From Spinactinospora alkalitolerans (GTDB lineage: Bacteria; Actinomycetota; Actinomycetes; Streptosporangiales; Streptosporangiaceae), in assembly GCF_013408795.1 (NCBI RefSeq), contig NZ_JACCCC010000001.1, positions 5,580,001 to 5,644,000 of the forward strand: a DNA stretch of 64,000 nucleotides, written 5' to 3'. The notes below the pieces were generated by a model. It was not told the DNA's origin and made no database searches. It saw only the letters and a list, made by a program, of their open reading frames with translations. Positions within the stretch are counted from its first letter, which is position 1, and each line of letters opens with the position of its first letter. Both the position numbers and the translations under genes were made by a program. Shown here in pieces: positions 13,494-59,923 of the stretch.

Positions 13494-13659
13494 CCTTTCC
13501 CGTGCCGCACGCGAGGGGAGTGGCGCGCCCGGGTTTCGCCCACTGGAGATTCGGGAGCCCGCCCGAGGGGCTTTTGACGCCCACCCCAGGACGAAAGTGG
13601 CGTGCGGGACCGCGAGACTCCGACCTTCGGCTGAGGTTCACGACCCCCGGTGGCTGAGG
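13494..13659. repeat. Dispersed intergenic inverted element, copy 1
   Basis: The right terminal sequence at 13635-13659 (GACCCCCGGTGGCTGAGG at its end) matches the family terminus at 20 of 25 positions. The imperfect left counterpart lies near 13538-13555 (GCCCACTGGAGATTCGG). A CACGCGAGGGGA block near 13508 recalls the core of copies 2 and 3. The right end is 26 bp past the menG stop codon. This is the most diverged copy and its left limit is uncertain. Confidence 0.45.
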
Positions 13660-13685: not shown

Positions 13686-14396
13686 TCACCTGCGCCGCAC
13701 GCCCCGGTGCAGCGCCACGGCCCCCATGCTGAGGTTGCGCCAGGCGACCTCCGACCAGCCGGCCTCCTGCAGCCGCCCGGCCAGGGCGCGCTGGTCGGGC
13801 CAGTCGGCGATGGACTCGGAGAGGTAGGCGTAGGCGTCGGCGTTGGAGGTGAACCTACGCGCGACCGCCGGCAGCGCGCTCCTCAGGCAGGCGCTGTAGG
13901 CCTTGTCGAGCACCCCGACGGGGATGTGGCCGAACTCGCAGATGACCAGCCGACCGCCGACTCCGGTGACCCGCAGCAGCTCGCGCAGCGCCTGGTCGAC
14001 GTCGTTGACGTTGCGCAGCCCGAAGGAGATCGTCACGGCGTCGAAGGTCTCGTCGGCGAAGGGCAGCCGCAGCGCGTCGCCGGCCACGACCGTGACCCCG
14101 CGCCGGGAGGCTCCGCCGCGGCGCTCGGCCCCGACCTGCAGCATGCCCAGCGAGAAGTCGCAGGCGATGACCCGTGCGCCCTTGGCGGTGAAGGGCTCCG
14201 ACGAGGTGCCGGTGCCCGCCGCGAGGTCGAGCACGAGCTCGCCGCTGTAGGCTTCGACCGCCCTGACGACGGCGCGCCGCCAGATGCGGTCCTGGCCGAG
14301 CGAGAGCACGTCGTTGAGCAGGTCGTAGCGCCCCGCGATGCCGTCGAACATGGCGGCGACGTCCGTGGGCTTCTTATCGAGTTCGGCACGGGTCAT
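13686..14396 (-). CDS. menG: Demethylmenaquinone methyltransferase
   Basis: SAM-dependent C-methyltransferase for the last step of menaquinone biosynthesis, 236 residues. UbiE/MenG signatures: [20 protein letters not shown] at 17-36, the SAM motif [13 protein letters not shown] at 54-66, and [19 protein letters not shown] near 145-163. Start ATG at 14396 ([18 protein letters not shown]). It lies upstream of menJ on the same strand with a 324-bp gap that holds a repeat element and the menJ promoter, so the two genes probably have separate promoters. Confidence 0.93.
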
Positions 14397-41924: not shown

Positions 41925-45143
<3,219 letters not shown>

Positions 45144-45259
45144 CAGCGGTTTCACGGAGATCGCCCTCGCGCGCGAAGCAGACCTGTCGCCTCGGGTACA
45201 CGCCGACATCATGGTTTCGGTCTGGCACCCGTGGTGGCGGCGTGGGCGGCGCGGCGCCG

Positions 45260-45388
45260 GGGCGATCCCTTTGGGGGGCCTTCGGCCACGCGAGAGGATC
45301 GCCCGGTCACCGCGAAGCTCCGGCTCGGGGCTCAGGTCGAAAACTCCCGGTGACTGAGGCCGACGTGCGCCATCGCCCGGTCACCGCG
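45260..45388. repeat. Dispersed intergenic inverted element, copy 2
   Basis: Core hairpin arms GGGCGATCC (45260-45268) and GGATCGCCC (45296-45304) enclose GGCCTTCGGCC and CACGCGAGA. The right terminal sequence is at 45335-45359 (18 of 25 positions match the family terminus). A 17-bp direct repeat (ATCGCCCGGTCACCGCG) occurs at 45298-45314 and 45372-45388. The terminus lies 45 bp past the argA stop on the minus strand. Confidence 0.7.
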
Positions 45389-45404: not shown

Positions 45405-45929
45405 TCAGGCGTCCAGATGCACCAGCATCCGGACGTTGCCGAGGGTGTTGGGCTTGACGCGCTCCAGGTCGAGGAACTCCGCGACGCCCTCGTCGTAGGA
45501 GCGCAGGAGTTCCTCGTACACCCGCGGCGGCACGGGGGTGCCCTGGATCGGCCGGAAGCCGTGCCTGCCGAAGAAGTCCGTCTCGAAGGTGAGGCAGAAG
45601 ACCCTGCGCACCCCGAGTTCGCGGGCCGTGTCGAGCAGGTCGGCGACGATGCGGTGGCCCACGCCGGTCCCTTGGACCGCGGGGTCGACCGCGACCGTGC
45701 GCACCTCGGCGAGGTCCTCCCAGAGGACGTGGAGGGCGCCGCAGCCGACGACGGTGCACTGCTCCCCGTCGTCGGCCTCGGCCACCCGGAACTCCTGGAC
45801 GTCCTCGTAGAGGTTGACCGTGCTCTTGGACAGCACCCGGCGCTCTCCGCTGAAGGTGTCGACGAGTCGGCGGATGCGGGCGACATCGTGTGTCCGCGCA
45901 CGGCGGATGGTGACCTGGATGGGCGACAT
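45405..45929 (-). CDS. argA: Amino-acid N-acetyltransferase (ArgA-type GNAT)
   Basis: 174-residue GNAT protein closely following the mycobacterial ArgA arrangement: DVARIRRLVDTFSGERRVLS near 15, VAEADDGEQCTVVGCGALHV near 49, and the acetyl-CoA motif RTVAVDPAVQGTGVGHRIV near 77-95. FETDFFGRHGF near 118 and EFLDLERVKPNTLGNVRMLV at the C-terminus complete the match. It makes N-acetylglutamate for arginine synthesis. The ATG at 45929 fits the family length. Copy 2 of the repeat element follows its stop. Confidence 0.85.
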   Translation of the reverse strand: MSPIQVTIRRARTHDVARIRRLVDTFSGERRVLSKSTVNLYEDVQEFRVAEADDGEQCTVVGCGALHVLWEDLAEVRTVAVDPAVQGTGVGHRIVADLLDTARELGVRRVFCLTFETDFFGRHGFRPIQGTPVPPRVYEELLRSYDEGVAEFLDLERVKPNTLGNVRMLVHLDA

Positions 45930-55031: not shown

Positions 55032-55229
55032 CCATGTAGCCACATCTCGCCAAGAGTTGCCGGGGTTTTTACGAAAGTGAATGACTAAGAGAAGTTGATC
55101 AGTGACTGAACGTAGTTACCTATGTCTGGATTTAGGCCCGCGAACACCCCTCACGAGAGCCGTGTCGAGTGGCGTAGATCACACTCGAGTTCCGCGCCTG
55201 CTGCCCAGTCCCTTGACTTTGAGTTTCGG

Positions 55230-55382
55230 CCTCAAGCCCAGGGAGTCTGTGACCTCAGCCGCAAACCGGAGCTCCGCGGTGACTGGGCGATCCCTGTAGG
55301 GGCCTTCGGCCGCGCGAGAGGATCGTCCGCCCGCGCGCCTACTCCGCCTGGGGCCGAGGCCAAAGACCCCCAGTGGCCAAGG
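55230..55382. repeat. Dispersed intergenic inverted element, copy 3
   Basis: Core hairpin arms GGGCGATCC (55285-55293) and GGATCGTCC (55320-55328) around GGCCTTCGGCC. Core similarity to copy 2 is high. The right terminus (55358-55382) matches the consensus at 22 of 25 positions; the left counterpart near 55230-55260 (GAGTCTGTGACCTCAGCC) is imperfect. The right end is 31 bp past the stop of the large PH-domain gene. Confidence 0.7.
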
Positions 55383-55413
55383 TCGGAATAGGCGGCAACG
55401 CGGCTGCGTACCG

Positions 55414-58338
55414 CTACTCCTCCGGGTCCGCGCTCTCGCTGCGGGTGGCCCAGCGCTCCGGGCCGGCGGTGCTCGACCGGGCCCTGTGCGCGCGTTCGGC
55501 CACGCCGTCGAGGACGCGGCGCGCCTCGGTGAGCTCGCGACCGGCGGCGCGGGCCCGCACCGGGCCGGGAGGGGTGTCGACCTCCACCGTGGCGACGCCC
55601 AGCCGACGGCTGAGCGGCCCGGCGGTCATCCGCAGGCTCTGCGCCCTCGCGTGCGGAACGATCTCGATGACCTTGCAGAACAGGCCGCGGCGGGTGACGA
55701 ACGCGGTCTCGTCCACGCCGAGGGCGTCGTCGCCCAATCCGCCGAGCTGCGCCGGGTGCAGCCTGACCGTGGCGGTCTCCGTCCCCGGGAACAACTCGTT
55801 CACCAAGGCGAACGCCAGGTTCCGCGGGACCACGGGGAGCAGCGTCGAGGAGTCCATCTGCCGCTCGCCCACGTACCCGGCGACGTTGGCCTCGACGCGC
55901 ACCACGCCCAGGGAGCGCCACAGCAGCGGCTCCACGATGCGGACCGCCTGCACCCGGCCCGGCGGCACGGTCTGCATCCGGGCCTGGAAGACGCCGTAGC
56001 GCAGCCGCAGCCCGTCGGGCGAGAACGAGGCGTAGAAGTCCGTGTAGCGCAGCAGCGGGCCGAGGAAGCTGCGCATCAGCCCGAGCAGCAGCGGGACAGC
56101 CCCGCCGAGCACGCCGAACTCGATGAACGCGATCCCCGCCACGATCAGCAGCAGGAACAGCAGGAACGCCGACAGCACCGGGATGCGGAACGCCAGGGCC
56201 CCCAGCAGCAGGCCGAACGGCAGTTTGTAGAACGGCCGCTCCGGCGCCTCGGGCGTCCGGCCGGACAGGCCGGCCGCGTGCGCGAGCAGGCTGGCGCGCA
56301 GCCGCTCGGCCGTGCGGCGGCCCAGGTAGCGCAGCCGGATCTCGCTGTTGTCGCCGCCGGCCAGCTCCACGCGCAGTTCGGCCAGGCCGAGGACCTGCAT
56401 CAGCAGCGGTCGCACCACGTCGACGGCCTGCAGCCGGCTCAGCGGGATCTCGCGGGAGAGCCGCCGGGCCAGCCCGGTGTGCACGACCAGGTGGTCGCCC
56501 CGCAGGCCGAAGGACACGTTCCACCAGGACACCAGGGCGTACGCGCCGGCGCCGAGGGCGACGGAGAGTGTGAGCAGCAGCACCCAGCCGATCCCGAACT
56601 GCATGAGCAGCACGCCGGGCATCGCGAGGAACACCAGCGCGATGACGGTCACCTGGAGCGGGATCGTCGCCCAATGCAGCCGGTGCGCGCCTTTCGTGAC
56701 GTCGACCTCCGGCTTGGCCGGCGCGGCGGGGTACTGCCGGGGCATCGGAGGGGGCCCGCCGTGCGGCCATGGGCCGCCGCCGTGGGGCGGTGCGGGCGGC
56801 AGGAAGCGTACGGGCCCGCCGGGCCGGGGGGCCGGGTGCTGCGGCGGTCCCGCGGGATGCGGGGGAGGCGGAGGCGGTCCCGCGGGGTGCGGGGGAGGCG
56901 GAGGCGGTCCGGAAGGCCGCATGGGCGGCGGCTGGTGGGCCGCCCCCTGCACGGGGCCGGGCGGCGGCGGAGCCTGGGTCTGCGAGGGCGGAGGGGCCGG
57001 CGGAGGCGTCGGACCCCCGTTGCCGGGCGGCGGACCGTACGCGGAGGGGCCCTGACCGGGCTGCGCGGGCGGCGGGCCGGGCCTCGGCGGGGCGTAGGGC
57101 CGACCGTACCCCTGCGGGGCGGGAGGCTGCGGCTCATAGGCGGAGACGAACCGGGGCCTGCGGCCGCGCGGCGGCTCCCCGCCGGGCCGCGGCGGACCGG
57201 ACTCGGCCGATCCGGGGGGCTGGGCCGCCGCGTCCGACCACAGCGGTGCGGACGTCCCCGGCGCGGGTCCGCCGCCCCCCGGTGGCGACGCGGGGGCGTC
57301 GTGGGCGTCCGGAGGCACCGGGCCTGGGGAGCGTTCCCGCCCTGAGGGGGCTCCCTCACGCGGGGGCCGCCCGGTGGACGCGGTCCCCGAAGGCCCTGCG
57401 GACCACAGCGGAGCAGCGGCGACGGGCGGCCCTTCCGCCCCGGGCGGGCCGTGACGCCCGGCGTCTCCGTTGAGGGCGGTGGCGGGTGACGGATGATCGG
57501 ACTCGCGACGCCCAGCGTCTCCGTTGAGGGCGGTGGCGGGTGACGGGTGGGCGGATTCGTCCCCGCTCCCCGAATGATCGGGCCCGTCACCGGTCTCGGG
57601 TGCGGCGAAAGAGGGCGGCCGCTGTGCCCGACCGGCACCGGCCGGGGCGTCCGGCTCGGCGGCGGGGTGGCCGGCGGGTGGCTGCGACGTACCGCCGTGG
57701 TCGGCGCGCCCGCCCGGTGTGTTCTGCTCGCCTCCGGAGGCGTCCTGACGGCCGCTGTCCTCGGCTGACATGGGGTCCACTCCCTCGTCGGTGCGCGTTC
57801 GGGCGGCCCGGCGCAGGTCGGCGAACGACCATCCGGCGATCGGGGGCGATGCGGTGGAATCGGCGAAGTTGACGTCCGTCGGCGCGGTGACCTCGCGCAG
57901 CGCGGGCGCCGGCTCGGCCGACTCGTCGAAGGGCCATTCGCCGTCCGCGTCCCCGGATCGCCGCCCACCGGGCTCGGATGCGGCCGGGCGCGGCTCGGGG
58001 GTCTCCGGATCCGACTCCGGCGCACCCGGCTCCGCGGGAATCGGCTCAGGCGCCTCCGGCTCCTGCTCTGCAAGGGCCGACTCCGGTGTCTCCGGCTCCG
58101 GCGCGGCGGAGGCCGGCTCTTCCGCGTCCGGCTCCGGGGCGCCGCCGGGTGCCCGATCGCCGGGGTCGGCGTCTCCGGGCCGCCATTCGAACCAGCCCCG
58201 GCCGGTCGAGGGCGCGCGCTGCCCCGGCGCGGTGTTCTCGGCGGTGCGGCGGCTGTCACGCTCGCCGGAGGCCTCCGCCTGCTGCTCGGGCCCGTCCTGC
58301 GGGTACGGCGTCACCGGTTCCCGGTTCGCGTCGTTCAC
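55414..58338 (-). CDS. Large bacterial PH-domain (YdbT-like) membrane protein with Pro-rich N-terminus
   Basis: 974 residues. Residues 1-570 are a low-complexity Pro/Ser/Gly/Glu-rich cytoplasmic arm. Within it lie PPPPHPAGPP repeats and an 18-residue tandem duplication (HPSPATALNGDAGR unit, twice). Residues about 575-974 carry three bacterial PH-like (bPH2) domains with hydrophobic helices (VTVIALVFLAMPGVLLMQF, LLLTLSVALGAGAYALVSW). Motifs such as EIPLSRLQAVDVVRPLLMQV and GRVQAVRIVEPLLWRSLGVV are typical of YdbT. Membrane-located. The GTG at 58338 is 3 bp after the ydbS-like gene. Function unknown. Confidence 0.8.
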   Translation of the reverse strand: MNDANREPVTPYPQDGPEQQAEASGERDSRRTAENTAPGQRAPSTGRGWFEWRPGDADPGDRAPGGAPEPDAEEPASAAPEPETPESALAEQEPEAPEPIPAEPGAPESDPETPEPRPAASEPGGRRSGDADGEWPFDESAEPAPALREVTAPTDVNFADSTASPPIAGWSFADLRRAARTRTDEGVDPMSAEDSGRQDASGGEQNTPGGRADHGGTSQPPAGHPAAEPDAPAGAGRAQRPPSFAAPETGDGPDHSGSGDESAHPSPATALNGDAGRRESDHPSPATALNGDAGRHGPPGAEGPPVAAAPLWSAGPSGTASTGRPPREGAPSGRERSPGPVPPDAHDAPASPPGGGGPAPGTSAPLWSDAAAQPPGSAESGPPRPGGEPPRGRRPRFVSAYEPQPPAPQGYGRPYAPPRPGPPPAQPGQGPSAYGPPPGNGGPTPPPAPPPSQTQAPPPPGPVQGAAHQPPPMRPSGPPPPPPHPAGPPPPPPHPAGPPQHPAPRPGGPVRFLPPAPPHGGGPWPHGGPPPMPRQYPAAPAKPEVDVTKGAHRLHWATIPLQVTVIALVFLAMPGVLLMQFGIGWVLLLTLSVALGAGAYALVSWWNVSFGLRGDHLVVHTGLARRLSREIPLSRLQAVDVVRPLLMQVLGLAELRVELAGGDNSEIRLRYLGRRTAERLRASLLAHAAGLSGRTPEAPERPFYKLPFGLLLGALAFRIPVLSAFLLFLLLIVAGIAFIEFGVLGGAVPLLLGLMRSFLGPLLRYTDFYASFSPDGLRLRYGVFQARMQTVPPGRVQAVRIVEPLLWRSLGVVRVEANVAGYVGERQMDSSTLLPVVPRNLAFALVNELFPGTETATVRLHPAQLGGLGDDALGVDETAFVTRRGLFCKVIEIVPHARAQSLRMTAGPLSRRLGVATVEVDTPPGPVRARAAGRELTEARRVLDGVAERAHRARSSTAGPERWATRSESADPEE
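57453..57560 (+). repeat. 54-bp in-frame tandem duplication inside the PH-domain gene
   Basis: Two 54-bp units starting at 57453 and 57507 differ at a few bases and keep the frame (18 codons). They encode the duplicated HPSPATALNGDAGR segment on the minus strand. This kind of local slippage may change arm length between strains. Confidence 0.85.
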
Positions 58339-58341
58339 GCG

Positions 58342-58941
58342 TCACAGCCCCGTGGAAAAGGTCTCGCTGCGCGCCGCGAGCCGGTCGCGCAGCGCCGTGG
58401 CCTCATCGAGGCGCAGCCCGGGGATCCGCGCGTCGGCGGTGGTGGCGGCCGTGCGCACGCGCACCGTGGCGGTCCCCAGCGCCTGCTCCAGCAGGTTCGC
58501 GGTGACGTCCACCACCTGCATCCGGCCGTAGGGGACCACGATGAGCTGGCGGACCGCCACACCGTAGGTGAGGTAGAAGTCGGTGCGGCCCTCGGCGTAG
58601 CCCCATGAGCGCTGCTCCTGCGCGGCGCTGAACCACCAGGCCGCGCCCGCGGCGGCCGCCAGGACGACCCAGACCGCCGCCCAGCCCCACCCGGACCACG
58701 CCCACGCGCACACGCCGCCGATGACGGCAACGGGCACCAGCACCGCGAGCACGGTCAGCCTGCGGTACCACGTCAACGTCGGGGCGACGCGGTTCCATGA
58801 CGTTCCGGCGGGCGCGGCGAACGCCGCCTCCACCGGCGGGACCGGCGGGGCCGGAGCGTCCCCGGTCCCGCTGTGGGCGGCCTCCGGCTCGACGGCCTCG
58901 GGCGACTCTTCTGAAGCGGCAAACTCCACGATTCCAGTCAA
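58342..58941 (-). CDS. Bacterial PH-domain membrane protein, YdbS-like
   Basis: 199 residues. N-terminal Glu/Ala/Pro-rich leader (1-45), two helices near 60-105 (LTVLAVLVPVAVIGGVCAW, AAVWVVLAAAAGAAWWF), then one bPH2 domain (YLTYGVAVRQLIVVPYGRMQ and VVDVTANLLEQALGTATVRV). It pairs with the downstream YdbT-like gene, as in other bacteria. ATG at 58941. Function unknown. Confidence 0.8.
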   Translation of the reverse strand: MTGIVEFAASEESPEAVEPEAAHSGTGDAPAPPVPPVEAAFAAPAGTSWNRVAPTLTWYRRLTVLAVLVPVAVIGGVCAWAWSGWGWAAVWVVLAAAAGAAWWFSAAQEQRSWGYAEGRTDFYLTYGVAVRQLIVVPYGRMQVVDVTANLLEQALGTATVRVRTAATTADARIPGLRLDEATALRDRLAARSETFSTGL

Positions 58942-59078
58942 TCATCCCGGAGCGGATAAGGCGCACACTTACGTCCCGGGGTCGCTACCCACCCCGTACC
59001 TGTTGAAGCCCCACCACTCGCCAGAACCTCGAGCACCGGAGGGTTTCGGGGCCTCGGCCTCGGAGAGTTCAGAGGAGG

Positions 59079-59361
59079 CCTTGGCCACCGGAGGTCTGTC
59101 ACCTCAGCCCAAGGAAGAGGTTCGTGCGGGTGCGGCTCCCTCGTGTGGCCGAAGGCCCATTGAGGAAACCGCGCACCCGTGCGCGAAGCAGACCGGCACC
59201 TTGAGTGCGAGTCGACACCGCGGTTTCGGCCTGGAGTACAGAACATCCGATGTGCTTCGCGCGGAGCCGGGCATCCCACACATGGGCCTTCGGCCACACA
59301 ACGGGCCGCCCGTTCACCGCGAACCCTTGTGGCCGGGGTGAAAGACCCCCGGTGGCCAAGG
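59079..59361. repeat. Dispersed intergenic inverted element, copy 4 (283 bp, bounded by 25-bp inverted ends)
   Basis: Left end 59079-59103 and right end 59337-59361 are complementary at 23 of 25 positions (right end begins GGTGAAAGACCCCCGGTG). Subterminal perfect 18-bp inverted pair GTGTGGCCGAAGGCCCAT (59143-59160) and 59282-59299, with a further pair at 59181-59190 / 59253-59262. No open frame stands out. This is the most complete copy and has the architecture of a miniature inverted-repeat element. Confidence 0.8.
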
Positions 59362-59428
59362 GCGGCGGACACGGCCCCCGACGGCCGAGGACAGCGTGCA
59401 GGCCGCCCCTCGGGTCTCGGAGACATCC

Positions 59429-59923
59429 TCATGCCGGATGCCGGGGATCCTCGTCGTCCTGGCCCGGCACGCGGCAGGCGTACTCCAGGAAGATCGCGGC
59501 TCCCAGCAGCAGGGCACCGGCCAGTGCGGTGCCCGCCGCGGTGAGCGCGTCGGTGCGCGGTGAGGGGATGTCCAGCATGTCCACGAGCGCCAGCGCCATC
59601 CCGCCGAACAGGCCGATCGCCAGCGCGCCGAGCAGTGCGCTCGCCTTCGCCAGCGCCACCAGGCGGGCGGCGCTCAGCGGCTCGATCGGTTCGGTGCCGG
59701 GCATCCGCCGGATGCGCCTGCGTGTGTGCACGGCCGTGACGATCTCGCCCAGCGCGAGCAGCAGCAGGGTGGGGATGGCCGTCCAGGGCAGCAGCGGCAG
59801 ACTGCCGTAGAACCGCTCGACCACCAGGTAGGCGATCAAGCCGCTGACCACGACGATCCCCAGCGGCAGCCGCCATCCGGTCGGGCGGACGCTGCCTTCG
59901 TGCTCGTTGTGCTGCCGACTCAT
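59429..59923 (-). CDS. DUF3180 membrane protein
   Basis: 164 residues with four hydrophobic helices (LPLGIVVVSGLIAYLVVERF, LLPWTAIPTLLLLALGEIV, ALLGALAIGLFGGMALALV, LTAAGTALAGALLLGAAIF). This matches DUF3180, usually the last gene of actinobacterial folate operons. Between the second and third helix it has RRRIRRMPGTEPIEPLSAAR, a conserved linker. ATG 59923 is 16 bp past folK. Function unknown. Repeat copy 4 follows its stop. Confidence 0.9.
   Translation of the reverse strand: MSRQHNEHEGSVRPTGWRLPLGIVVVSGLIAYLVVERFYGSLPLLPWTAIPTLLLLALGEIVTAVHTRRRIRRMPGTEPIEPLSAARLVALAKASALLGALAIGLFGGMALALVDMLDIPSPRTDALTAAGTALAGALLLGAAIFLEYACRVPGQDDEDPRHPA

Follow-up and report, generated by a model that had tools for sequence, protein, structure and literature searches.

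The window analyzed here is a 64,000-nt stretch (positions 5580001-5644000) of a genome that consists of one 6.68-Mb contig. It contains a 283-bp palindromic element (59079-59361) in the 3' region of a DUF3180 gene (59429-59923, minus strand), with 67 nt between the element and the stop codon of that gene. On the same strand, the DUF3180 gene is followed downstream by a gene for a bacterial PH-domain protein (58342-58941, minus strand). Genes were called with a purpose-made codon-usage caller and not with a published program; within the window, its calls for the neighbouring genes are consistent with Pfam. As described below, the element is an A-type copy of a composite palindromic repeat, and all copies were oriented as the plus strand of this one. 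Other pieces of the same family are present in the window. A partial, B-like piece (45157-45316) is flanked by two convergent genes, one for a UvrD-type helicase (plus strand, ending at 45143) and one for a GNAT acetyltransferase (45405-45929, minus strand). A second partial piece (55212-55383) is 30 nt behind the stop codon of a called gene (55414-56745, minus strand), and a short piece (13609-13659) is 26 nt behind that of another (13686-14396, minus strand).

We found that the inverted repeats of the element are far beyond chance. The sequence-only reading had described 25-bp ends (59079-59103 and 59337-59361) that match at 23 of 25 positions, and two perfect internal pairs (59143-59160 with 59282-59299, and 59181-59190 with 59253-59262). 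All three pairs are as described, and each extends further. The outer arms (59079-59109 and 59331-59361) pair over 31 nt at 87%, the middle arms (59138-59160 and 59282-59304) over 23 nt at 91%, and the inner arms (59181-59196 and 59247-59262) over 16 nt at 88%. The sequence GCTTCGCGCGGAGCCGGG, which adjoins the inner arm at 59181-59196, is nearly invariant between copies. Folded as RNA, the 301 nt from 59070 to 59370 have a predicted energy of -177.1 kcal/mol on the plus strand (z -9.31) and -189.8 kcal/mol on the minus strand (z -10.54). None of 100 dinucleotide shuffles matched the fold energy of the element on either strand. We considered a strand-specific RNA on the basis of a GT/AC imbalance and rejected it. 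The imbalance is a product of the fold itself and is nearly gone among pairs common to both strands (18 vs 13; 8 vs 6).

In line with the sequence-only reading, the element does not appear to encode a protein. None of the reading frames stays open throughout the copies; the best single frame is open in 11 of 25 A-type copies, and a different frame in 12 of 20 B-type copies. No Rfam family reached its gathering score anywhere in the 64,000-nt window, and none was found at E≤1 between 58900 and 59500. The lone h2cR match in the Rfam tests (18 bits, E 0.65) was far under the threshold of 70.

The element is repeated and not a single occurrence. Searching the genome with the 283-bp sequence gave 54 matches on at least 40 distinct places, a lower bound obtained by joining strands and pieces with 40 of 150 candidates scored. 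Consensus sequences of the A and B types gave 212 and 237 candidates, respectively (40 scored each). We examined 69 copies, comprising the 40 places from the 283-bp search and 29 further ones, and distinguished three types: A (as in the window), B, and C. The A and B consensus sequences are 78% identical over their full length. C-type copies are about 440-580 bp long and have a duplicated centre and duplicated outer modules. In 684 kb of the genome, 21 of 389 gaps of at least 30 nt contained a family piece (E≤1e-3). Scaled up, this gives perhaps 200 copies per genome, a rough figure that may be high because the stretches were picked at round coordinates and some contained known copies. Clustering by any shared repeat linked 41 gaps.

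The family is old. The best pair of A copies is 88% identical (median 80%) and the best pair of B copies 92%; there were no near-identical or young copies among those compared. Trees of the copies are star-like; internal branches account for 15% of the tree length in A and for 18% in B.

Copies of the element are located close behind genes. Of 69 copies, 34 were between convergent genes, 33 between tandem genes and 2 between divergent genes. In the sample of gaps that was not selected by copy, pieces were present in 9/59 convergent, 11/249 tandem and 1/81 divergent gaps. A total of 53 of the 69 copies were within 60 nt of a stop codon, compared to a mean of 12 (range 3-23) for random placement in 304 element-free intergenic gaps. 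Among the 67 elements with a neighbouring stop codon, the nearest one was a median of 24 nt away. In tandem gaps the element was closer to the 3' end of the upstream gene in 29/33 cases, and in the 34 convergent gaps only ~56 nt of non-element sequence was left in total. Elements in tandem gaps showed little preference for one orientation over the other with respect to the genes (19 vs 14). Flanks with an element showed no clear lack of other hairpins (4/34 vs 7/26). At four loci in this genome (L139, L144, L150 and L152), the called gene next to the element appears to take its stop codon from the element end CGCCGATCTTGA (or the complement), which overlaps that codon. Ends of GTAG REPs that supply the stop codon of a neighbour have been reported (PMC3733652, in excerpt).

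The position bias could be due to selection against insertions elsewhere. In one explanation, the repeats would have no function: gene ends would simply be the only places where they are tolerated, and template-switch correction would keep their hairpins perfect. Selection against insertion alone does predict few divergent and few coding locations. However, proximity to stop codons is far beyond random placement, and this includes the tandem gaps. Further evidence on this explanation comes from the small hairpin and from the pattern of change among copies, described below.

The long forms of the repeat share their core with the element, and in many cases their ends are formed by a palindrome of 56 nt, GATCTTGA...TCAAGATC. 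The outermost sequence of long copies, CGCCGATCTTGACCTTG, had 164 matches in the genome with at most 2 mismatches, compared to 2 for a reversed control. Several of these matches are inverted pairs ~64 bp apart, forming lone hairpins, mostly directly behind stop codons. A 17-mer from the end of the hairpin was found within 130 nt of 7/23 B copies and 10/18 C copies, and once in 138 controls. It was found at none of 28 A copies. (This test replaced a looser search with a 14-mer and 3 mismatches, which had matched 24/69 controls.) The A copy in the window is linked to the lone hairpin only via the B and C forms, with which it has its core in common. A hairpin of 56-64 nt with an invariant GATCTTGA/TCAAGATC clamp looks like the basic unit of the family.

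In several long forms of this genome (L141-L147 and L153), the core seems to be nested in the small hairpin, with TTGAC or TTGACCTTG flanking it on both sides. Judged from these flanks, a single ancient insertion with a short duplication is possible.

The clamp word itself is not abundant. There were 30 occurrences of GATCTTGA in 684 kb, and three words of the same composition were commoner; by site, 19 were in genes and 12 intergenic, the two counts differing by one match. In view of these counts, we rejected a DNA uptake sequence.

We found the small hairpin in other actinomycete genomes. The pattern GATCTTGA-N28-58-TCAAGATC matched in 29 of 341 genomes of the family, and a reversed control in none. 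Fourteen of the 341 contained 3-110 exact copies (110 in G062, 58 in G159, 47 in G091 and 43 in G010). The other 15 matching genomes had 1-2 copies each, many of them probably chance. The family hairpins listed were mostly 54-58 nt long. In a sample of the class, 35 of 394 genomes matched the clamp pattern, while four genomes had a single match each to the reversed control. Nine genomes outside the family had 3-29 copies resembling real palindromes (49, 55-56 or 66 nt), and a tenth, G637, had three matches that seem to be coding. G424, G364 and G484, from further families of the class, have palindromes of 49 or 66 nt within the same clamp, in place of 56 nt, so clamp spacing appears to be limited to a few fixed sizes. 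A genome with no exact octamers, G008, gave five strong hairpins in 200 kb with covariance model R1; these have GATCTCG in place of the exact octamer. Therefore, a count of zero exact octamers does not mean absence.

Hairpins in other genomes are also mostly located behind genes. At 40 loci in eight genomes, 23 were convergent, 13 tandem and 2 divergent, and for 2 no neighbouring gene was called. A stop codon was a median of 26 nt away, and 23 of 37 hairpins were within 60 nt of one. A repeat search of 400 kb of G091, from another genus, recovered hairpins with the same ends and a different stem. The same genome (L166-L185) contained a second dispersed intergenic repeat, partly tandem, in five gaps of the 400 kb (e.g., L168:16687-17373 and L172:13844-14595).

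The stems of the small hairpin are genome-specific and covary across genera. For the alignment we took the 41 hairpins with a length of exactly 56 nt, 6 of them from this genome and 35 from others, and omitted other lengths. The clamp octamer is required by the search and was not counted as evidence. In the alignment 91% of cells pair. There were 242 double-changed cells, compared to 89 ± 9 after shuffling (none of 500 shuffles was as high) and 49-78 when the partner was slid by 1-3 columns. When sequences were shuffled within genomes only, the variable stem still had more pairs (550/656 cells) than any shuffle (at most 520). The outer flanks did not pair above within-genome shuffles (259 vs a mean of 254). 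Correction of imperfect palindromes by template switching, a known mutational process, could yield such covariation without selection, and counts in favour of the explanation without function.

The arms of the 283-bp element behave differently from the stems of the small hairpin. Copy by copy, the arms do not covary (p=0.55 for A copies, p=0.05 for B copies), and on the A alignment covariation was barely over shuffles. We dropped the idea of a covarying core after these tests, and the lack of covariation in the core arms also fits the explanation without function. Changes among copies are spread unevenly over sites. A model with rate variation among sites fitted better, by 154 log units for A and 82 for B. 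Of 264 A columns, 91 had no change on terminal branches, compared to 43 expected and a maximum of 62 in 5000 simulations; for B, the number was 100 of 230, compared to 61 expected. The avoided columns include unpaired ones. Therefore, the resident copies seem to be under selection, with site-specific mutation rates as a possible alternative. The avoidance of particular columns, the recurrence of the octamer clamp in many genera, and the concentration near stop codons all argue against repeats that are merely tolerated, and we consider a family without function quite unlikely.

The window locus was compared with the corresponding locus in relatives. The gap behind DUF3180 is 499 bp here and 91 bp in G092, the closest relative compared by DUF3180 identity (77%). 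Among ten relatives with a measurable gap, five had 88-156 bp and five had 236-1128 bp; in one further relative the gap runs to the contig end. None of these relatives had a long match to the element. Judged from gap lengths, the locus is consistent with an insertion, without proof of one. In G091 a 56-nt clamp hairpin lies ~310 nt behind the DUF3180 stop codon (L156, L212).

None of 40 relatives, with up to 18 candidates scored in each, gave a match to the element. In 48 of the 341 family genomes a match passed E 0.001 (2 candidates scored per genome), and none of the best matches outside its own genome exceeded ~49 bits or ~65 nt. An exact core pattern had no matches in IMG/VR and 4 stray matches in GTDB 220, where its own genome was possibly left out. 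We rejected an origin from plasmids or phages. Plasmids had no match for the element or for two lone hairpins, and among phages a third lone hairpin matched only three Gordonia records, over 37 nt at E 0.3.

The sequence-only reading had proposed a MITE-like element. The description as a dispersed, non-coding palindrome with terminal inverted repeats stands; a classical MITE is not supported. A classical MITE would be a non-autonomous element moved by a DDE transposase that is now lost, found behind genes through harmful insertions elsewhere or through targeting of terminators. Besides the dispersed copies and inverted ends, such an element would account for copies that range from ~64 to 580 bp and share their ends but not their middles, for a core that interrupts the small hairpin in long forms with a possible short duplication, and for a DUF3180 gap of 499 bp here compared to 88-156 bp in five relatives, although the other five have 236-1128 bp. 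However, no target-site duplication was visible by eye, as had been noted from the letters, and there was no excess of duplications among the 69 copies, in a test that would reveal 7-9 bp but not 5 bp. The ends of copies are variable and mosaic and are often extended by repeated modules, no young copies are present, and compensatory changes in stems are unexpected for decaying MITEs. No transposase was seen, in a profile search for Y1_Tnp. We consider a classical MITE unlikely, but with appreciable weight.

Our results are more consistent with the notion that these are old, high-copy, composite extragenic palindromes, similar to REPs and BIMEs, that act at the 3' ends of mRNAs; in our judgment this is about evenly poised between right and wrong. 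Together, the position, the symmetry and the preservation of the hairpin suggest that the elements act on the 3' ends of mRNAs arriving from either side, and such action has been proposed for REPs (PMC3733652, in excerpt). The element would sit in 3' UTRs right behind stop codons, often between converging genes, where it could be transcribed from either side and fold into a long hairpin. It may then end or protect the 3' end of the upstream mRNA, most likely at the level of RNA. Between convergent genes, one element might serve both mRNAs and separate the two transcripts. The alternative description of the element as a large RNA foldback gains weight from the copies directly behind stop codons and from the covariation, across genera, of the hairpin that ends its long relatives.

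Ordinary intrinsic termination is not supported, because only 1 of 80 tails behind the hairpin contained TTTT (mean of 1.7 T in 12 nt). The 80-nt hairpin has a mean predicted energy of -54 kcal/mol, and these predictions are better explained if the hairpin protects 3' ends, or terminates transcripts without needing a U-tract, than by U-tract termination. U-tract terminators are thought to be scarce in GC-rich bacteria.

We infer that the family spread by a copying mechanism. REPs and REPINs are moved by RAYTs, which are Y1 transposases, and the location habit and composite architecture of the family are like theirs (PMC3733652 and PMC2817692, in excerpt). However, the Y1_Tnp profile (PF01797) had no match in the genome of the window, and of the 18 genomes with three or more exact hairpins, 12 lacked it. 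The genomes without it include the four richest but one (G062, G159, G010 and G156). It was present in G091, G064, G060, G001, G343 and G007, which are also hairpin-rich. In genomes chosen as hairpin-poor it was found in 4/8, two of them weakly, but this group is not a clean control, since G008, one of the weak matches, later showed variant hairpins. The missing Y1_Tnp largely refutes a RAYT as the general mechanism, and we consider movement by one very improbable.

We compared the family with known systems. ERIC and Correia MITEs are intergenic palindromic repeats of 100-300 bp that are non-coding and present in many copies. The family described here is like them in these properties, and differs in the lack of duplications of at least 7 bp, the mosaic ends, the nested modules and the extreme bias towards stop codons. 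In Neisseria and Haemophilus, DNA uptake sequences occur as inverted pairs that form terminator hairpins (PMC2267715, in excerpt). These also combine a constant short word with inverted pairs in hairpins behind genes; in contrast, the hairpins here have a long variable stem outside the word, and the word is not abundant alone. Streptomyces clavuligerus, also an actinomycete, has bidirectional transcript 3' ends at convergent genes that share their 3' ends. There, RNA ends were mapped, and the excerpted text describes no repeat family (PMC8269248).

The closest likeness is to REPs and BIMEs. These are high-copy palindromes with a constant tag, genome-specific stems and larger composites, located between convergent and unidirectional genes downstream of coding regions, with palindromy preserved (PMC3733652 and PMC2817692, in excerpt). 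The family shares these features and the ends that supply stop codons, and consists of extragenic palindromes in tens to hundreds of copies that lie behind genes and avoid divergent promoters. It differs in its tag, which is GATCTTGA (or GATCTCG) on both arms and not GTAG or CGTC at one end, in a small unit of about 56-64 nt compared to 20-40, in composites of 280-580 bp, and in the lack of a Y1 transposase in most hairpin-rich genomes. The open-access full-text literature searched contained no paper on such a family. It is possible, although we lean against it, that GATCT(T/C)G-clamped hairpins are mobile 3'-end elements found across actinomycetes, with a copying machinery of their own that is not a RAYT, with lineage-specific paired stems, and, in some genomes, with nested composites of 280-580 bp that bound convergent genes. 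REP-type repeats have been described mainly via the GTAG and CGTC super-families and their RAYT transposases. If our suggestion is correct, it raises the questions of what copies such hairpins, most of whose carrier genomes lack a RAYT, and whether they set 3' ends in GC-rich bacteria, and the lone hairpins, with their exact and searchable definition, make both questions testable.
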